A stretch of 64,000 bases of DNA from Tubulanus polymorphus. Its lineage: Eukaryota > Nemertea > Palaeonemertea > Tubulaniformes > Tubulanidae. Numbering within the stretch: position 1 is the first letter of the stretch; each line of letters opens with the position of its first letter. Under the pieces are notes generated by a model. It did no database searches and was not told where the DNA came from. It saw nothing but the letters and a program-made list of their open reading frames with translations. The position numbers and the translations under genes are program-made. Of this stretch, positions 3,001 to 61,923 are shown one piece after another. The stretch spans positions 7,109,001-7,173,000 of the forward strand of contig NC_134028.1 in NCBI RefSeq assembly GCF_964204645.1, written 5' to 3'.

Positions 3001-3400
3001 GCTTAATCAGGCTATGCATTTTAGTGTTCGTTGACTAGGTCGCCATATGCAGCCAAAACGGAAATGATTTTATTGAAGAAATATTCAGGAAAACACACAT
3101 TCCTTCGTTACATGCACGTTTGGGTGAAGTTTCCTAAATGAACATAAACATTCTCTCTTATTTTCTAAATTGTTTCACTTTTTTGCATAACGAGGTTTGG
3201 TCCATACACTACAAACAATCAAACTTTTTACCTAAATCACCATTTAACCGATTTTGCTGTTCACTCGCTTCAAAAAAAAGAAAAACAAAAGAAATGCACA
3301 CACGAATTGAAACAAATCATATCTTCATTCAGAACCTGAAATGTTAAAAGATGCAAGTGAACTTTCATTACCTGGTACTAGTATTTTGATAAACACTTAC
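1..3400. other. Last visible CDH23 intron; repeats, no exon found
   Basis: This stretch lies 3' of the last visible CDH23 exon and is probably intron: the exon ends in a donor and no tail-like exon (the NKYSF...NPVWLDPF region of CDH23) could be found on the minus strand. It holds a periodic AGTGTGTC motif near 208-510, a foldback repeat at 2575-2707, a short TA run near 1897 and a diverged copy of a GGATCTAGGA repeat near 1225. Small open frames here show no recognisable protein. Confidence 0.55.
2575..2707. repeat. Foldback repeat (GGCCGGTTGTTCAAAA family)
   Basis: Inverted ends GGGCCGGTTGTTCAAAATT and AACTTTTGAGCAACTGGCC. Related copies: 6366-6488, 13848-13940 and 30923-30999, with a diverged one at 58847-58950. 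The shared core reads GATAACCAGNGGATA. Probably a MITE. Confidence 0.55.
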
Positions 3401-5382
3401 CGAATGCCATAGCAGTTGCAGCTTTCAATTTTCGTCGATATCTGAAAAGAAATAGTGAAAAAATCCTTAATAATTCTGAAAGAAACCTCTGATTTTTTAC
3501 TAGAGCGGAGACAGGATAGTGCAGATGACTGGCAACACCTGATGGGATAACTGGTATTGCGGCTCTTATCTGTGACAATGTGATTTTAAAACTCTCACCC
3601 TGTCCGCGTAACAAAATATTGAGATTTTTAGAACTTACGTCCTTCTGCAGCACCACAGTAAGATAATCAGCAAAATTACAGCCACTCCTAATGCGACAGC
3701 AACTACTGCCAACGCTAACCGTAATGTTCCGACTTCATCGGTCTTTACTTCAGGTTCCACAGCCAACTGTCAAAAACACGAAATTATCATTGATACTTAG
3801 AAGTAAGGCAATATAGTCAGCAATGTGGTCCAGAGTTCTTAAACGGACTGGCCTTAGGATTAAAGTTTATTGAAGTCTGTCCCTGACATTTGATGGTTCT
3901 CACCATAAACAAATTTGATCTAGGACTGACATGTCTGAAGGGAGTTAATCAATGATAAAACAAAATTCATCATAAATCCTGTACTTACCAAAACCTCAAT
4001 GACGTTATACTCTTTAAAGAAAGCTTCTAATGATGCATAGTTTGTGTCGACTAAACTGCAAAATTAAGAAAAAATTTTTAAACATTTCTCTTAATATGAA
4101 TAAGGAGTCTGGTTGCTAGGGTTATGAAACTTACTCTAAGACGTAACGTGCATCTAATATTTGTCCTTTATTATCGACTGCGTGTATAAACATATCAGTC
4201 CTGAAATACAATCATAAACATCCAATCATCGAAATCAAGAGTTGGGGTTCTTGATAATAAACTATACAGCAGGAACAAGTTCTCAGTTAAAACTCTTGAT
4301 GTTCATGGAAAATTAACTATTCTAAAAAGTTGAACGTCACATTCAACAGAAAATTGTTGAACTGGGTTCTGAGGAATAATACCCAGCGCACTACTACAAA
4401 CGGAAACATGGAAACAAGAGACAGAACATGTTTCTGAGGCGTTTCCCTATACCGTATCTGAGTCCGGAATAGTTTTCTAACAGCTCCACTGAGTATCTAC
4501 GATGGCCATAACTTGTTCACTCTTAAGTATGGATCAAAAGCCCTTTTATATTGGATCAAATTTTACTATCAAGAAAACTTATCAACAAATCTTTGTAGGT
4601 TCTACTTCATGAGGTTCTAACAATCAGACAAAGAACAAATAGCAGATATATTACTTACAATTTATCATCAGATTTTCCATCATCTCCTTTATGAGAGGTT
4701 ATCTTATCAACGTTTATAGTTGCACCAGTTTGATTTGATAGAAAGCTGAAAAAAAGACATTTACTTCTTTATAAATATTACGCAGTTGAATCGCTGTAAT
4801 TTCTTTGAGTTTCAGATTGAAGCAACAATAGAAATCGAACAGACGCTTCTGGAAGATTGAACACGTACTCGGCGAATGTCCGGCGTATCTTTCCAACTTC
4901 ATTCGTTGTTCCTCTGAATACGACTTTCACCCTTTGATTTTCATTCAGCAAATAAATCTGTAGGTGATGAGAAAACGTGAGAAAATTCACTCCGATTTTA
5001 GGAGATAAAGGTTTCTAATGATGTGATGATTTTTCAAGTCTTCCTTTCATAGTTTAAACAATGATCTAAGCTTAACACAATTTCTTTCGAATCGTGGAAT
5101 ACTGTAATACCAGTAATTAAACAATTCACTTACGGCCATGTCAGCAGTGTCGAACATTCCAGACGAATCATTCACTTTAACTTTGAAGTTGAAATAGCCT
5201 TGCATATTAGCTTGAAAGAATATGTTCGTGCTTAAAACTGCCGACATCTTTTCCAGAACGAAAGGCACCGATTCGCTACGTTCTTGCAGTTGTTCTTTCA
5301 GTTTTGCAGTGATCTGAATTGGTCCGTCGATGTAGAAGAAATGTATGCTATTATTTCCGATGTCCTTATCGGTGACATCTCT
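3401..5382 (-). CDS. CDH23: CDH23 membrane-proximal domain, TM helix and first tail residues
   Basis: Seven small exons (5134-5382, 4869-4957, 4659-4745, 4135-4200, 3989-4055, 3639-3766, 3401-3441) encode residues about 1519-1760. They give the end of EC14 (TDKDIGNNSI), then the domain following the last EC repeat in CDH23 (NENQRVKVVF, FLSNQTGATINVD, ILDARYVLE, FFKEYNVIEV). The transmembrane helix is at about 1721-1744 (LALAVVAVALGVAVILLIIL), followed by WCCRRTYRRKLKA, like YYRTVHKRKLKA of human CDH23. Donor 4868 is taken at GTACGT inside a longer open frame, because only that choice restores the conserved RTFADFLSNQ join. Confidence 0.85.
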
Positions 5383-8300
5383 CTGAAAGAACGGATACAC
5401 GTTTGATTTATTAGCCGATCATTAATAACTGTTACTTTAAGGTATAAGATCGATGAGAGGCTTCCAGAAGATCTATAGCATTACATACTAGGATCGAGAA
5501 CATGAGCTATTAAGCCACATGATCATCTACCCTGAATTGTACAATATTTGAAGAAACTGAAGTGGTCTTGCCACATCTCGCAATCATCAGGACTGACCGG
5601 CCAAGTTAGTTCTACAAGGAAGTACTGGCAACAAGAGGAAGAGGTAAGCAGAGGAAGTGATAGGAAGACAAACTTTTCCAGAACAGTCAGACAGGCAACC
5701 ACTGATGTTGGTTTCTTCGCCTAGCGATCGATTTGCAAAAACATAATTAGATGTTCTAGTCTAAATACTGAACATATACCGGGTAGGTAAAAACTCACAA
5801 AGAAATTATAAACTTCGTCCCCCTTCTGCGTATCGCGTGTCACACCGGCTGAAAACTTCTTTTTCGTGAACACCGGCGGGTTATCATTTATGTCCTGCAG
5901 TTTGACCTTGATCAGTAACAACGACGGGTCGGTCGCATTATATTTCGTTTGAAAACGATTTGGATCCGTCAGAGGTAGACTGTTCGCCGCGCGTCTCCGT
6001 CGACCAGCAGGCGGCTGCGTGAACGCGGTACGATCCCAATATTCTACAAAATTACGATTTATTCATATAGGACGATCAAAAGGGGGCAGCGCTATTAGAA
6101 AACCAGATTCCGAACGGAGGTCGCTTACTATTGTTGCATTCACCGGTTGCCTTGATTACAATATCGGAAAATGGAACTGTTTCGCGGTCCATTGATTTCA
6201 CCAAGAACAATTTGCCAGACAGCTTTTCCAAGTTGAAATTTAACTGCGGGTCACCGCCTTCAAAAATAGAAATTCGAATAACATATCTATGCATTGGCAA
6301 ACATATGACATCAGGAAACTGAACAGCTCTTTAAAATGAAAACTTTGAACACACTATTTTCTTCTGGGGCCTGATGCTCAAAAGTTTGTTAAGATAACCG
6401 GCTGATAAATACCATAGTATCAATGAACTTTCAATTGTCACTATATCAAGTATCCACTGGTTAAATCTAACTTTTGAGCAATTGGTCCTGAAGTTAAGGT
6501 AGTGGTTTTGGGTTGGTGTCAGTACACTGTACTTAGATAGATGCTGCTCATGACCTTGATTATGTGAACACACTTTTAATATGGACATTTAGCGAATTTA
6601 CTGAAAAAGTGATTTACTGTATCTAAAATGCATGATAAGAATCTGAAATTGATTGAATCTGGATGGAACAGTATTCATATCATAGTGGTATCACTGTATT
6701 CGAACTTACTTACCGACTATGAAATAACAAATGATCGAAAGGTTTTTACTGTCTCTGTCGGTCGCTTTCGGTATCATACCGATGAGAACGTTAGCTTTAC
6801 CCTCCGGTACACTCATTACGTACGGGATGGCAATTTTCGTCTTGTCAAACATCGGTAGATTATCATTCGCGTCTCTGACATGAACAATTATCGATTTAAT
6901 AACCACAAACAGTCCATCGGTTGCTTCAACTTCCAACTAGAATGAAATAAACGAATCTAGTTATAGACTGAAATATTCCAATCATCTGGCATTGATTGTA
7001 CAGGGAGGCCACTTTTATTTGACATGCTTTTCCCTGACTATTCCCTGACATGTGGGTTTGTTTCCTTGACTTGATCTGCTAAGAATTCAATTAATTAACA
7101 CAGAATCTGTTTGTTTTTTGGCACTCAAGTTTCCCTGATCTTAAGCTGTTTTACAAAATTCCCTGGCTTGTTTTAAGAAAAGTCCCTGACTTTCCCCTGA
7201 TTTCCAGGTAAGTGGCCACACATATCATATATATTAGACAAGAATAGGCTGATCAGGGTATTTTCTAGAGTGAATAATACCTGACCTGGTATTGAGCTTG
7301 ATTTTCACGGTCGGCCTGCACGATCATCTTTAACCATCCCGTTTTCGATTCGATAACAAAAGATTGGTAATCCTTCTCGGGTTTCAGTCGATATGTAATG
7401 ATTCCGCTTTGCCCCCGATCGCTGTCTGTAGCTATGAATTGAACGATCATCTTGTTAATCGTTGTTTCATTCTGGAATAAAATCAAATGATTTTCATTAG
7501 GAAATGAAAAATCGAGTTTCACAATCTCAGGAATTGAAAACCACCAAGACACATAAATGTTCATTCACAAACTGGCGAACTGGACCCCCAAATCACAGTA
7601 AACAAAATGCGATATGTATTTTATTCTAAGTATAAAATCATATTTCTAATTCTGGAGTCGAGGTAAGAAAATACCCAGTAAGTTTACTTTCAAATATTAC
7701 GACCTTTAGACCATTGATTTGCTAAAACCTTATATATTTCTGTGAAGGTTCGAATATGTAAGAGATAATGAAGGATTTTGTTAAACCATACTTTATAAGC
7801 CATCGTATGAGACTTCTATGGTAATCAGCATCTACCCCTCTTTGCTAGCACACCGCATCACGGTGTATTGATGATATTAGTTATTAGTTTTCATCTCTAT
7901 TGAAGCAGCACAGTTGGATGAAGAGTTTATACTAATTCGCTACCTCTGATACGTAGAAATCAGCAGCAACTGGCTCTCTAAACACCGGTGGACTATCATT
8001 GACATCGGTAACATTGATATAAACATCAGTCGTGCCGGTGAGAGTGGTCGGTGTGCCTTGATCCGTCGCTCGCAATTTCAAATGGAACAAAGCGATCGTT
8101 TCTTTCAGCGACTTTTTCAACACAATCTGCCCGCTGGTCGGCACGACTTGGAAATAATCGGTGCCGTTCGAACTCGCTGTGTCGATCGAATACGTAAGGA
8201 TTGCGTTGTTTTTGATGTCTTTATCGTCGGCTGTGATCGTCGTCACCGGATTCACGACCGAATGAGTCTCTTGAATTTCGATCAGATATTTCGTTTTCGG

Positions 8301-11300
8301 GAACGTCGGCGTTTCGTCGTTGACGTCGGTTATGCGTATCTGCAGCTGAGCGGTATCGGTACGCCGTTTCTCGGCGGGTGCGTTGTTGTTATCCGCTGCG
8401 ATCACGGTCAAATCGTAGACGGATTTCGATTCGCGATTCAGCGGTTTTTTCACGGTTATCGTCCCCTACAAAATTATGATTTGAGAGACTGGTGAGAATG
8501 ATATCAACAATGTATTTCTTCTGATTACTTGATTAGTGTCTTTGTTCTGGATAGTGTATACATATTTCTTAATTTCTGTTTAAACTCAGATTAGTCTCTT
8601 CATTATGGATTGTATGTTAACCCTTTCAGCGCATCTACACCGCAGTGCAGTGTATAAATCAGTGATAGATTTTGCTAGTACACCGCACTGCAGTGTATTA
8701 ATTTAATTAGTAATTATCTCTCTTGGCAGCACCTGTCAAACATAGTGAAATATTTGTAACTAACGATACACTGCACCGCGGTGTATACACACTATAGTGG
8801 TATTCCCATTATTCAACACACTAGGGTGGAATTTTTGAAAATTTTCAAATTATCTCCAGCACTATAGGGTATTGATTAGCCAGCACTGAAAGGGTTAATT
8901 TCATCATTTATGTTGTAACTCGATGATTTTCAGAGTATAGTTAAAACGTTAAAACTAATAGCTAAACTGAACTACTAAAACTACTAGCTCAAGGAAACAT
9001 TTTTGGAGTGTTATATCATTTTTTCATTTTTATTGTGGGATCCTTTACACATTAACATAAACGATCCTTCTGCACCAGCGAACGAGGATTCCACTAGTGG
9101 CAAGTATGGAACTGGTAGCAATAGATCATCTAATCATGATTCTATCAAAAAAGTAATTTTCCGATACCTGACTTGGGCATGGTTCATGAAAAAGATCAAA
9201 TCGTTTTAAGTTTTAAAATATTTTTGCTTATGAAAACGGACCCAGCGTAATGGGATACTACTCACATTGTTCGGATCAATTTGAAAGTCGCCAGTTCCCG
9301 CTTGTAAGAAGTACTGCACAGCACCGTAATCTCCCAAATCTGGATCATCGGCTTTCAGAGTTATGACCGTCTGTCCGACCGTCGTGTTTTCCGGTACGTC
9401 GATTGTTTTCGAATACGGTTGAAATTTCGGATTGTTGTCGTTAATGTCGAGAATACGCACGCGTACATCGGCAGGCGTCGATAAGCCACCGGTGTCAGTT
9501 GCTACGACGGTGAAGTTGAGCCATTCGTTCGTCTCGCGATCCAAACGTTTTTTCAATGAAATTCCGCCTAAAATATTATGTTTTATTACGAATTCATCGG
9601 TATTTCCAAATATCGAACTTAAATCTTCAACCTCGCCCACAGGTGAGGTATTGAGATACAGGCTCTCTATATTCTCAAAATCTCATTTTCATTTTTTCGA
9701 GAAACGGACTGACCTGATGAAGGATCTTTGATTGCAAAGCTTCCCGTGACATCATTATTCAAGGAATAAGCAATAGTTTTTGCTTTGTCGGCATCAGTCG
9801 CTACGACAGTCAAAATCACCGAGTTCAAATCAGCATTTTCATTCACGTTTACTTGATAACTGGGTTGTTTGAATACGGGAGCATTGTCATTCACGTCAGT
9901 AAGTCCAATCGTCAAAGTTGCTGCGAATAACAAACAATAGCCATCATATGGTAGAGAGACAAGATCGAGGGGGTTGGTATTGAAACCCTGCAAAGCTGAT
10001 AAAGTTAATTGATGTGGTAAGTTTTCTCTTTTATCTGGATATTAACTGTTAGTAATATGTATCCTTGAGAGTTAATAGAAATAGAGTTATCCTCGATGAG
10101 CTGGTTTTAAAAATCAATTTCACTTAAATGTGAGTTTAACTCAAACGATTGATACTCGAGTTTAAGCCAGTCAATTGCTTAAAAGCTGGTAAGAGTTAAC
10201 CTACGGATTACTGAAATAGCAGCAATTGAAAATATATCTTTATTATCATGGTGCTCATCAGGTTGGTTAGGTTGAATTGGACCACAACTTTTAGCAACTA
10301 GCCATGGGCCAAAGAAAATCCTATCTTACCGATTGCTGACTGAACTCCGCCTAACGCATTCTTATCGACCACTTTTATCTTAATCGTAACCTCTTCTGTT
10401 TTCTCGCGATCCAACTGCTTGCTCACGTAAACTTTGCCGGTCATCCGCTGCACTTCGAACAGACGTGTGAAATTGTAAACCACCGGGTCTACGGGGTTTC
10501 CAATCGAGTCCTCGGCCGTTACTAGATCGTAAAGGACGCTGTATTCTAACTGAGCGTTCAAATCGAGGTCGATCGCAGCGTAGTCGTAAACGACTTGCTG
10601 CGGTTGTAAATTTTCGGCGATTTCGATACGGACAGAAGTCGGCTTAAAAGTCGGCGCTTTATTATTGACATCTGTTATCGTAATGGTAACGGTCGTACTT
10701 CCCGTGTTCGTCGGGGTACCGCGATCGATGGCTAAGACTTTCAGCACATATTGAGTTTGCGTATCCCGATCCAAATTTGCGCCCGTTTCTACTTTAATCA
10801 CTCCATCTTGCCCGCCGATTTTGAATTTATCTTTTGCTCCGGATTCGATGCGGTAGAATATTTCGCTGTTCAGAGTTCCAGGTCGGTCGTCATCTTGCGC
10901 AATGACTTGCGTAACATTTGTATCTATGATAAATTTCAAATGATTTTAAAAAAAATCCTATTTCAGTTCCTAGATAGTTTGCGTTTAAGACATAAGAGAC
11001 TTTTTTCATATGAACTTACCTGGTAATGAATTTTCTGGAATACTTGCTGAATAACTGTTTTTGTCGAAGAAAGGCGTGTTGTCATTCGTGTCCTTAACAA
11101 TTAATGAAGAAATCATAAATGCAATATACCATCAACCATGATACTATAAGTCTAGTCCGTTGGTCAGCCCCGTTAGATGCCTACATGGCGATATGAATAG
11201 GCTAGAAGAGTTTTGTTCATAGAGTCAGGGAGCGAAAAGCGAAAAATTTCACGAAAAAATTCAACTCTCATATCGATATTTCATAATTCAGTTCATTCAG

Positions 11301-14300
11301 TAAGATACCGGCATCAAAATCCTTTTATTTTCAATGAACGTTGAAATAGATGATAAGGCTCCCAAATGGAGATTTTGTCAAACAAGTCATCAAATAGGTA
11401 TAAGATTGTTGTTCCCAAAATGAGTGTAAGGTATAGTTTTAAAAATTGATTCAAGTCTCATTGAAATGTAGAGTAAATTGTAGCACAGTAAGCGTTTAAC
11501 CACTTAGCAACTAAACACATTTTCGTGTAACTAGACCAAGACCCACAAATTATTCATACAAACCTCTAGTTTGATGACGACAGTAACATCATTACTGAGA
11601 GGTGGGTTACCCTTATCGGTAGCCGACACAATCAATGTAAACTGTCCGTTCAACGCAGGATCCATTTTCTCATAATCTAAAGGCGCAGTCAGACTGATCT
11701 CACCAGTCGATGGATTGATGGTGAAATTTTTCTGTGGATCGCCGGATTTGATCGAGTAAGTGATTTGATTGTTCGGAGTCAAGTCTCGGTCAGACGCCTA
11801 AAAAACCACAAGAGAAATACACATTCATGTATCACAAATTTTTCACAAAATCATTTGGACTAGACATAGACTGGTATCATGATTAACCCGAGGGCTAACT
11901 CAATTTAATTTCAATTGAGTTATCCCCCGGCTTAAAGATAATACCAGTCTCTAAAACTGGCCCCTAGAACTTTAGTTAAAGATTTCCCCCCTTGAAGATA
12001 TTAAATTGAGAGAAATTACAGAATATGTTTTACTCTACTACATGAATTCAACAAGTACAAATATGTACTTCAAATACTCTTTTCGCCTCGTATTTGCAAT
12101 AAACCGCATGAATTTCCTCAGTTTTTAGATGATATGTATGATGCATTCATCATATCACTTGGTTTTCTTCACATTTTTTCAAGGCAGTAATTCAAAAATT
12201 CCTCATCCTCAAGAATGGTTTCGTTACCTCAATTTTTACAGGTCGTACGAGCTGCGATTGTCCTTCCAAAACTAAGCCATCGTATTTCGTCTGACGGAAC
12301 TCCGGTTTGTTATCGTTTCGATCGGTTAGTTTGATAATCACTTGAACGTTCGAACGACCACCGGCGCCATCTGTAGCGATATACACGAGGTAATACGCGT
12401 CAATCGTTTCGCGATCGAGTAACGTTTTGTCGAGGTTCGCGTCGACGTTAACGCTGATCAAACCGGTATTCGGATTGACAGTAAACCTGTAAACAACATC
12501 GAACGATTCATGAAAGCGATCAAAATCAAAACTAGGATCTGTTTTATTGACTGGGTATAAGGCTAAAAATGGTTCTATGAGGTTAAATTCTTAACTAAGA
12601 GTGACCAGGGTTGGGGACACTTGTCAATGTAAGGACTGATTTCTGCTACAAGGAGACTTGTTGTCAGCAGTGACTCAGCAGTGTTGGGACGGTATTGCAC
12701 ATTGTTGACCAGATCCTCAGGTGAGAATCAAAGAAATTAAAGGTCTTTCCAAATTATCACTGACTTGAGCAGAGTGAGTTGACTGTTACCCGAATAAGGA
12801 AGGGTCTACTGTCTTCAGTACAACCAGTCACTTCCCTGGACACTGATGTATTTTACATTTTGAAATATGAAACAGATCCATGGGCTTGAATTGGCAAGAA
12901 CAGAGAATGCTTACTTCGATGCGCTTGATCCAACAAGAGAGTATGTTATTTTACCATTGATACCTTTATCACTGTCTGTAGCCTGAAGAAAAACAGATAG
13001 ACAATGTTCTAAACAAAAATTCTTGGTTGGCCCATAGACCAATGATTTCATCACTGACAAAATTGATGGATAGTAGTTCATGTTGCATGATGCATCGTTA
13101 AACTCACAGTAATAGTAGTAATCGAGGTTCCTTTGGGTGAGTTTTCAGGAACGGTTGCATCGTAGCTCTGTTTACTGAATACTGGAAAATGATCATTGAC
13201 ATCGGTAATGGACAAAACGATGTCTGCGCTGCTCGAACGTTTTTCAGTCGTCTGCGTTTCCGTCGCAACGACCTAAAAACAAGAAAATGCTTCGATATCA
13301 ATTAAAATGACAAATTCTACAACATGAAATATTGTACAATGCCAAATTCATTTTACTAAACTTTTCATGAAAAAGTGCATAAACTTTTAACCTTTCATAA
13401 CCTGAATTTTGGTTGAAACAGTTTGAACAGAAGTTTAAGACAAGTTTGTGAAGCCCATTAAGGGGCTACAGCTACGTTTGGCTTTTCAAACATCAGGTCA
13501 CATACATAACTGTTTAATCATAACGTTTGTATGCTTTGTAATATCTAACTATATATGGCAAATAAAAAACTATCTATCGAACAAACCTTGAATGTAATCG
13601 TTGATTGTTTTTCGTAGTTTAAAACGCTTGAATTTTTCACGCGTATCATCACATTAGCCGTATTATAAACGACAGACGGCGCCACTTCAAATGCTGTATA
13701 CGGCTGACCGTTTTGTTCTAGTGTTAATTTGAATTGTCCATTGATTCCCTGAAATAGAAAATATCATCATTGAATGGTACGATTATCAGAACTACTCAAA
13801 TCTACTTGTTCCCTGTGGGATGGTCATAAAAGGGTAGGTAGTATCAAGGCCCAAGTGATTTCCTTTGCTCAAAAAGTAGTTGAAGATAACCAGCGGATAA
13901 ATACAGTGGTAATAATGAAATTTTTATTGAACAGATTTGAGCCCAAAAACCCTACACTGACGAGATCAGTTTAAATCCTGATGGTATAAACCTATCCTTC
14001 AAGGTGCATGAACAATAGATTCATTAAAAAAAACCCCATGTATCCTGCCCTGGTTTGGTGAAATTGAGGGGTTTCAACTATTCATTTAAAGCCACGGCAC
14101 AACTCAGCAACAACTATCAAACCAACATGGTGGAGAACTAAAGACTCAAAAAATACCAACCTGATCAAGATCGGTAACTTTCATTTCAGTTTGCGGCGCT
14201 GGCATGAATGTTATCGGTATTCCTGTTTGCGTATTTTCTATAACATTTGCGACATAATTCTGTTGGTTAAACGTCGGTTTCTCGTCGTTGACGTCAGTAA

Positions 14301-52283: not shown

Positions 52284-56888
<4,605 letters not shown>

Positions 56889-58697: not shown

Positions 58698-61600
58698 TCA
58701 TAGTTCTGTTTTCTTGGTGTCTGGCTTGCCGGTGTCGCCTTTCAATTTGCCCGTAACTTTTCCCTCAACTTCGTAAAGACAGTCTACAGAAAAACAGATG
58801 AATCTTATATGAGTAAGTGTACTTGACTGGATAAATAGGCTGCACGAACAGGGATTAAAGATAACCGGCAGATAAACGCCATAGTAACAACGAACTTTTA
58901 ATTGTTAATATGTCTCAACCATCCATCGGTTTTTACTCAAACGGGTTTTTATTGTTTCAAATGTAATACCAGATGATCTATTAAAGCATAGAATTCAAGT
59001 TCTATGATTAAAGGTTCACTTTGAACCAACGGTTATAACTATATCCTATAGAAAAGATACAACCATAATGAATATCAGTATTGTTTGTAACTTGATGTTA
59101 GCCTGGAGGAACGCATTTGAACTTGCTTTTTTGCATGGAATTAACGCGCCATACAAATTTTATTATCATTACTATCATTATTGCTTAGTGGAACGAACCT
59201 TTATTTGCATTGGTTTGTTTCAGGATACGTTTAGCGCACAGCCAGTCCGCTAAATCTTCATCCTGGTGGTGAAAGTACCATTCTTCAATTTCGTCTTCAT
59301 AATCGCCGACCATTGTATAACACTGAAGTAAAATGGAAAGAGAGAAACTACAAATGACGAATGTCACAGCAATGAGTCGACATGAAAAACAAAGAGAGCA
59401 ACTTTAATTGATAATTCTTCAGTGAAATATCATGTTTAAGTATATAAATATCAAACGCTTTGAGTCCTTTCTAAAAAAAGTTTAGGAGACTTTTAGCATA
59501 CCAACCTAGAACTATTGGAATCTAGAACAACAGAGAACTTTATAGCTTACGTGTTTTTGCATTTCCGTAACTTCGGCTGAAGGTGAATCCCACAAATCGT
59601 GGGGAATTCCTAAATCGACTTTAACGCCTTTATTTCTACAATAATAAACACACTGCACCACAACATTGAAAGCAAACATTACCGGTATTCGAGTTTGTTG
59701 GACTTGGTGATAAGGGTCGGGCATAGAATGCATTTGCGGTTTGTGAAAATAGCCTATTGTAATCTAACCATATTCTGGTTACCAGTAAACAATGCAATGT
59801 ATTTGCAATATTGAAAAAACCTTTTCGGAATATAAATCCTAGTGAAAGCTAGCTGAGAACATGTTGAAAGGTGTCTCAAGTAAAGAAATTCTTTTTCACA
59901 ACACAACTGTGGGACAGTGAAGTGCAATCAGTGTGATGGAAAATATGTATACACCTTCTACACTTCTGAATGTGGTAAATCATCAACAATTTTTTTCATC
60001 TGTGCCTCACATTATTGGTCAGTTCATACGAACAGTATGATTAACAAACATCTTAAGAGTAGTGTGTGTAGTAATGCTGAGTGATGGAGAACCAGTGCAG
60101 TGGAACTCGTGACCTGCCGGTGACCAGAGATTCCATTTACCATGAAATGATACCTTTTTCTGCATGAGAGTCACTTCTGCAGGAGGTTTATCCCATAAAT
60201 CATACGGTAAATCCATTTTCACATTAACGCCTTTATCGCTGATTTAAATTCATCATAAACGAATCATTTATCAGCAGATCATCGGGAAAAATTTCTGGAA
60301 AATTCTCGAAAAAGCTACTTACACTAAACCATGCAGAGTGCGCATGGTTTCACTTTGTCCCTTCGCGAAACGGAGACTGCCTTCTTTCTCTTTATGTACG
60401 TTGTACTGCAGAATTCGGTCGCAAATATGAGGATCGACGAGAGCTTCGGCTAAACGCAATTCACTGAAAAATTATGATAATGCCTACATGAATGCTCATA
60501 AGGAGTACTCACTGAAACTAATGCGGAAAATTTAGATCAACTTCATTAAAATCTCAAGTGGCTCAATAGTTAATCGCAGTTAAACGTTACCACCTCGCAT
60601 ATTAAGATTGAAGGGGGTCTAACCCTCGAGTGCAACTACACCGTGGTGCATCAATCGGTGCTGCACTTTACTAGTACATCGAACCGCGGTGTATTGATGT
60701 TATTACCGTAGTAATTAGTTTTTATCTCTATCAAAAGATGGCAGTATCTGTCAAACAATGTGAAATATTAGTAACTAACAATATATCGCACTGTGATGTG
60801 GATGCACAAAGCGGTATGCCTGCTATTCAACACACTGGGGTGGACATTTTTAAGATGTTCAAATTATCTCCAGCACTTTTGGGTATCAATTAGTGAGCAC
60901 TGTAAGAGCTAACACTATCACAATCTTACTAATGCCCGAATGTTCTAGGTTCTAGCCAAAGTCACATCCCTCATACGCTAGGAATTAATGTCAATGAGAT
61001 AACCTCATCTGGCATAACGGGACTGCTCACTCCCTATGACAAGTGTTTTAGTAATGATTATGAAACTGAGCCTGGAAACATTTTCGATAGTACGCCGTAC
61101 TTACGAAGTTCGATAGTCTATTTTCTTCTTGTTCATGTCGAGGTTATAACCGGTTTCGATAGTTTGTTTGTATTTGCCAGTTTCCCTCAACCGGTCCTGT
61201 AGTTCCGTCACTAAATACTTGCAAACTGCGAATGAAATCGAACCAAAAACAGTGTGAAATGAAATACAACGCGAAGTGTGAATATTACATTTGAAGACGT
61301 CTTCTCAGCAACTGACATTTTAGTCATGTGCTCATTTCTGCAATTTTTCCACGTAGCTTTATTGATGAGTGGGATGAAGATTGAATGAGATAAGGAATGG
61401 GTCGAGATAAGGTTTATTGGTGATAATACGGTATAGGCCTAGACTAGAAGTACAAGTAACTTATACACGTCCAGCATGCGTCGGATGAAATGATGAAACA
61501 TGGGCGAGCTAGAAATATTCGAAGGATATAGGGAGAGGAATTTTCATGGCTTTAGCCATGTCCCAAACTCGATGTTAGATATTCTTGAAGAATTACATAC

Positions 61601-61923
61601 GAAAACTTGCAATTTCCAAAAGTCAAGAGTGTCTAATTGGCAGATTTTAACGATCTCTTTCTAGATAAAAAGGGCAACCTGAGTGGGAAGACAGGGCAGG
61701 AGTCGGCTCATGGGATATGAGTATCAAATCAGTAACTACTGCGGCTCAAATTCAACCTGCTCGACATGCTCGAAAGCGAACAACAAAAAAAGTTGTCTAT
61801 CTTTTTTGTTGAATACATTCACTTACCTTCACATTTTGACGGTGGCTTCACCCAGTTGTCATCAGAGTTAACGTCGAATACCAAAATGGTGATAATTACT
61901 GAACTGATTATCAACTTATCCAT
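58698..61923 (-). CDS. Canopy family ER saposin-like protein (CNPY3/4-like)
   Basis: Canopy proteins are ER-resident saposin-like folding factors; vertebrate CNPY3 and CNPY4 assist surface delivery of Toll-like receptors with gp96. Exons (N to C): 61827-61923, 61105-61225, 60323-60463, then either 60154-60238 or 59551-59635, 59199-59322, 58698-58783. With one alternative exon the product is 217 residues. It shows a signal peptide ([16 protein letters not shown]), the first cysteine pair [29 protein letters not shown] as in CNPY3/4, [15 protein letters not shown], and DCLYE. That is six cysteines, as in the family. It ends KTEL, a KDEL-type ER-retention signal. The start is the first ATG before the signal peptide. 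CNPY4 is slightly closer than CNPY3 (WYFHHQ, GSLRYAKGQS), but an invertebrate gene may be ancestral to both, so no number is assigned. Confidence 0.9.
59551..59635 (-). CDS. Canopy alternative exon 4b (canonical version)
   Basis: An 85-nt exon encoding [20 protein letters not shown] then EVTEMQKH. It has a good acceptor and a GTAAGC donor with the same phases as 4a. It is closest to human CNPY4 ([18 protein letters not shown]). Joined after 4a, its first in-frame codons read AAA TAA, so both exons together stop translation at once. Confidence 0.82.
60154..60238 (-). CDS. Canopy alternative exon 4a (divergent version)
   Basis: An 85-nt exon encoding [20 protein letters not shown] then EVTLMQKK. 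It has a good acceptor and a GTATCA donor, enters needing one base and leaves in phase 0. It aligns without gaps to exon 4b at 17 of 28 residues. It lacks the VDLGIP motif of vertebrate Canopy proteins and is the more diverged of the pair. Confidence 0.8.
60623..60908. mobile_element. piggyBac-type MITE, copy 4
   Basis: Ends CCCTCGAGTGC / GCACTGTAAGAG, flanked on both sides by CTAA (60619-60622, 60909-60912). It lies in the Canopy intron between exons 2 and 3. A fifth, broken copy is at about 7843-7920. Confidence 0.6.

Follow-up and report, generated by a model that had tools for sequence, protein, structure and literature searches.

A gene of the Canopy family in the nemertean Tubulanus polymorphus was found to carry two adjacent alternative exons, and this pair, as judged from the sequence, is real and well formed. 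By frame logic, the two exons (designated B and C) can yield protein only if they are used in a mutually exclusive way. They lie on the minus strand of the 64,000-nucleotide stretch of contig NC_134028.1 analysed here (the window, whose numbering is used unless another contig is given), B at 60154–60238 and C at 59551–59635, and are homologous, of equal length (85/85 nt) and of equal phase. No description of such an exon pair in a Canopy gene was found in the literature searched (main texts, mostly of openly accessible papers), in agreement with the earlier note on this DNA, which knew of none. Tandem-duplicated mutually exclusive exon pairs, e.g. those of FYN and the calcium channels, have been surveyed in human (PMC9741552, PMC5740500), and the pairs resemble B and C in that homologous exons of the same length and phase lie side by side, many of them also with a length that is not a multiple of three; the gene here differs in being a Canopy gene, and “CNPY” is absent from the main text of both surveys.

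The gene occupies 58.7–61.9 kb of the window on the minus strand, with six coding exons per transcript. Exon 1 (61827–61923, coding part from the ATG) specifies a hydrophobic N-terminus resembling a signal peptide by eye, and is followed by exon 2 (61105–61225) and by the constitutive exon 3 (60323–60463), which encodes the GSLRFAKG block and leaves two codon bases at its end. Exons B and C each encode 28 residues past this split codon. An 84-nt intron (60239–60322) precedes B, 518 nt separate B from C, and 228 nt separate C from the constitutive exon D (59199–59322), which starts at a codon border and encodes the CYTMV...WYFHHQ block. The last coding exon (58698–58783) ends with KTEL and a stop. 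Placing B alone or C alone between exon 3 and exon D gave an open frame of 217 aa, while inclusion of both gave AAG AAA TAA, an immediate stop, and skipping of both gave a frameshift and then a stop. Since 85 nt is not a multiple of three, single inclusion is needed for an open frame. The coordinates, lengths, phases and residues of the two exons were the same as those in the earlier note, and its claim that only one-at-a-time splicing yields a full protein was borne out by these frames. Its mutually exclusive reading of the pair also fits the homology and adjacency of the exons, the frame logic and, as described below, indications that both copies are under coding constraint.

Exclusion might instead arise from crowding of splice sites or from a mixture of U2 and U12 sites. 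The short intron before B (only 84 nt) would suit crowding, but the intron between B and C is 518 nt long, and PMC5740500 counts steric interference where donor and branch point lie less than 50 bp apart, so crowding does not explain the exclusion. All introns of the gene are GT-AG and none looks U12-like by eye. Both forms of this explanation were rejected on the B–C spacing and the GT-AG sites, and we regard it as extremely improbable.

Both isoforms matched the Pfam profile PF11938 (Canopy; “TLR4 regulator and MIR-interacting MSAP”; cut-off 21.1 bits) over profile positions 1–146 of 150, the C isoform at 144 bits and the B isoform at 139.7 bits. Six cysteines were counted by eye on the translation, none of them in the exchanged segment, and the C-terminal KTEL is an atypical variant of the KDEL type. 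Six conserved cysteines, a KDEL-type C-terminus and a signal peptide are given as Canopy hallmarks in PMC13093825. Of the 28 exchanged residues, which come just ahead of the fourth cysteine, 11 differ, and the rest of the domain is the same in both isoforms. A phmmer search of the PDB returned no Canopy structure; its two hits, both to RNase III, were chance ones (best E 0.57). Among 52 and 2 pattern matches of the 217-aa protein in prokaryote and virus contig collections, respectively, none was confirmed as a relative, a negative of little weight given what these collections contain.

Exons B and C were identical at 56 of 85 bases and, without gaps, at 17 of 28 whole-codon residues, the latter being the value given before. 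The likeness is beyond chance: their ungapped BLOSUM62 score was 93, against a maximum of 26 for B when the 6-kb region was shuffled 300 times by mononucleotide and read in three frames of one strand. A third copy of the exon was not found within 57.5–63.5 kb, and a search of the genome with the B peptide gave two matches, B and C themselves, and no further copy.

Splice sites were ranked with a generic weight matrix, among 213 GT and 191 AG sites at 58.6–62.0 kb. By this matrix the C donor ranked 3rd of 213 and the C acceptor 34th of 191, the latter being the second lowest acceptor of the gene; the exon 2 donor and acceptor ranked 30th and 23rd. The B donor (34th of 213) and acceptor (64th of 191) were both the lowest in the gene. 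The two exons had been described as having good splice sites, which holds for the C donor, less so for the C acceptor and not for B. As ranked from sequence, the sites of B are weak yet not absurd, since those of exon 2 rank near them and the C acceptor is second lowest. Because its acceptor and donor are the lowest in the gene, B may be rarely used. Such ranks would suit a B exon that is a relic of duplication, open by luck and seldom or never spliced, with C as the sole working exon, and the B isoform also scores 4.3 bits below the C isoform on PF11938.

The substitutions between the exons bear on this possibility. Differences at codon positions 1, 2 and 3 numbered 9, 3 and 16, with no stop and no indel. 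By the Nei-Gojobori method dS was 1.59 and dN 0.31 (dN/dS ~0.19), so that third-position changes dominate and the frame is intact although synonymous sites are near saturation, which speaks against a relic. When 28 differences were placed at random on one copy, at least 17 residues were kept in only 22 (starting from B) or 38 (starting from C) per 100,000 trials. In a stricter simulation one copy was constrained and the second was neutral. With stops barred, P was 0.55, 0.20, 0.048 and 0.005 at 5, 8, 11 and 14 synonymous changes per branch. At 5 changes per branch P was 0.50–0.55 on identity alone, and 0.28 when stops were allowed and none was present; a short divergence of this order would leave a neutral second copy plausible.

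Runs were then conditioned on 26–30 base differences and taken as on target if they were free of stops and reached the identity and the synonymous count seen between B and C. A neutral second copy was on target in only 0.5% of the runs when stops were allowed and in 1.6% when they were barred, compared with 45%, 24% and 12% at omega 0.2, 0.35 and 0.5. Runs near the observed values were commonest at omega 0.2–0.35 (17%), and the two neutral models gave 16/1351 (1.2%) and 64/1431 (4.5%). The fit of B to the family profile was also compared with controls. With the exchanged segment masked, the PF11938 score fell to 106.6 bits. When the 11 changed positions were filled at random, the scores were 131.5–137.9 bits, below the 139.7 of B in 7/7 controls; when they were filled by BLOSUM62 draws starting from C, the scores were 135.8–141.8 bits, below the 142.4 of B in 8/8, by a small margin; B was above all 15 of these 15 controls. 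Because a neutral second copy rarely fits the conditioned runs, translation has probably included both copies over much of the time since the duplication, as far as a single exon pair of modest power can tell, and we consider it unlikely that B is a relic.

The immediate stop on joint inclusion would also be compatible with B acting as a poison exon, which together with C would shut the gene off via mRNA decay. The amino-acid sequence of B seems to have been kept, and this is needless for such a role, making it a distinctly improbable one.

Introns flanking B were predicted to pair with each other. The 84-nt intron upstream of B paired with the intron that follows B at −41.2 kcal/mol, with 2/200 shuffles as good. 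For the same upstream intron with the one that follows C, 167/200 shuffles were as good, and for the B–C with the C–D intron 29/200. These values lend no support as yet to a docking/selector scheme of the Dscam type, in which a single docking site could pair with a selector at each exon. In an exon-by-exon test, run after the pairing had been sighted among these three intron pairs, the 84 nt upstream of each exon was set against the 90 nt downstream. None of 1000 shuffles paired as well across B, while 774, 411, 937 and 446 of 1000 did so across exons 2, 3, C and D. Ensemble pairs crossing B amounted to 36.4, against 8.9 ± 6.8 with shuffled flanks (0/100 as good); for the other four internal exons 36, 60, 48 and 67 of 100 shuffles were as good. 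When 1000 places were drawn at random from the window and given this geometry, 18 paired equally well. Folded as a whole, the region had an ordinary energy (z −0.76, 45/200 shuffles as good). In the predicted stem, the first 90 nt of the B–C intron (60064–60153) is complementary to the intron before B; the innermost pairs lie at about 60250/60145, and the stem reaches to ~10 nt from each splice site of B. Searched with a mobile inverted repeat in mind as a possible origin, each flanking intron matched only itself. We regard the modelled stem across B as a good lead. In human genes, inclusion is lower for exons that conserved pairings loop out (PMC8052449), and the simplest reading by this precedent would be that C is the default and B is used once the stem has been opened. 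The likeness to known cases in which paired flanking introns loop an exon out (PMC8052449 and PMC7404189) is that the intron stretches flanking B are predicted to pair; the difference is that the stem around B is a prediction from one genome only.

Taken as a whole, the explanation that we hold to be probable is a tandem exon pair in a CNPY3/4-type gene, spliced singly, with C as default and B regulated and masked by a stem, serving to tune client choice. An 85-nt exon of an ER co-chaperone gene of this type would have been duplicated in tandem long ago. Exon 3 would then be joined to B or C, and B or C to D; transcripts with both exons or with neither run into a premature stop by computation, which presumably leads to mRNA decay. 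C is the likely default by its better sites. B would lie in a loop closed by the predicted pairing of its flanking introns, with its acceptor side hidden, which would favour splicing of exon 3 to C, and opening of the stem, by a factor specific to a tissue or state, might switch splicing to B. From what is known of the family, the exchange would most likely tune which client (e.g. a Toll-like receptor) or which GRP94 complex is served. On this reading, one gene would probably make two folding helpers with different partner preferences. A swap of 28 residues within a single gene would amount to a natural domain-swap experiment, pointing at the segment expected to decide which clients are chosen in the GRP94 pathway. 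Splicing and gene duplication would thereby become testable as two routes to one division of labour.

Toll-like receptors are clients of the CNPY3/4 class of co-chaperones. TIR domains gave 23 matches in the genome at E up to 0.001, all 23 over the cut-off. Of these, 12 are on contig 10, and 11 of the 12 are listed with open frames of at least 764–785 aa. One locus on contig 10 (L008; TIR at e.g. 1586416–1586826) has a 675-aa frame with leucine-rich repeats and a TIR domain. By sequence, the matches on contig 10 suggest an enlarged set of Toll-like receptors. In fly, CNPY3 and CNPY4 have the orthologue CNPYb, a co-chaperone of gp93 that is required when Toll-like receptors are folded (PMC7503973), and CNPY3 and CNPY4 are reported to raise and to lower, respectively, the membrane levels of these receptors (PMC9065090). 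In the same two sources, vertebrate CNPY3 and CNPY4 (PRAT4A and PRAT4B) and fly CNPYb appear as Toll-like receptor co-chaperones or regulators; they share with the present gene the Pfam family, the six cysteines and a KDEL-like end.

Exons B and C were compared with provisional sequences of human CNPY3 and CNPY4, and every residue count given on them is equally provisional. On these sequences, the 28-residue segment of C has 19 matches to CNPY4 and 14 to CNPY3, and that of B has 14 matches to CNPY3 and 13 to CNPY4. At two adjacent sites (M/L and D/G) B groups with CNPY3 and C with CNPY4. At a third site B and CNPY3 have Y in common, C and CNPY4 differing from one another. Three conservative sites of the same sequences conflict with this, placing the two exons in one group and the two human proteins in another; no site puts B with CNPY4 and C with CNPY3. 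The earlier note had contrasted VDLGIP, as the family motif kept by one exon, with VKMDLP in the other. Both are present, but an opposition of family motif and odd one is too simple, as on the provisional human sequences both flavours occur in vertebrate paralogues, CNPY4-like and CNPY3-like. With two to three agreeing sites and three conflicting ones, common ancestry of the two exon flavours with CNPY3 and CNPY4 is a possibility.

The Met at the switch site is residue 145 of the provisional 278-aa CNPY3 sequence. Kiyokawa et al. 2008 reportedly tied Met145 of CNPY3 to receptor preference. If that is right, the exon swap would alter the very residue that affects this preference. Neither the provisional CNPY3 and CNPY4 peptides nor the link of PRAT4A Met145 found confirmation in the literature searched. 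Vertebrates obtain their variety from two genes, each apparently with one exon type, whereas here one gene has both types. Exon pairs split between paralogues are described for CACNA1F/CACNA1S and the FYN family in PMC9741552. The likeness to such subfunctionalisation is that the two exon flavours resemble two vertebrate paralogues at two to three residues; the difference is that the resemblance here runs through provisional human sequences and that three other sites conflict. It is conceivable, and in our estimate unlikely, that the pair is old, that a single gene, before the vertebrate genes split, made both types of co-chaperone by splicing, of which CNPY3 and CNPY4 each kept one, and that the Met/Leu switch sets Toll-like receptor preference. 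With many Toll-like receptors in the genome and a switch between Met (B, CNPY3) and Leu (C, CNPY4), the animal would, if this were true, choose its clients by splicing.

The gene with the B/C pair is taken by eye to be CNPY3/4-like. A search of the genome with PF11938 gave eight matches, six of them over the cut-off, three being pieces of this gene and three pieces of one locus on contig 6 (L005), which we take, by eye, to be a CNPY2-like gene. The gene described here was the sole one of CNPY3/4 type found in the genome, a missing match not being proof of absence. Below the cut-off were a match of 18.9 bits on contig 3 (L006), which we presume to be CRELD-like, by eye, because a cysteine-rich EGF-like stretch follows it, and a further match of 17.1 bits on contig 6. 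By eye, the CNPY2-like gene extends over about 2590–4800 of L005 and ends with DANKDEL. Its segment matching B and C sits, by eye, inside a longer exon and forms no separate exon, and its intron at 3300–3900 of L005 appeared full of an AT-rich tandem-like repeat.

Elsewhere in the window, an open frame on the plus strand at 54244–54681 presumably encodes a protein resembling COP9 signalosome subunit 4. On the minus strand at 5050–12590, open stretches with repeated motifs of the D.NDN type looked by eye like a large cadherin-like gene.
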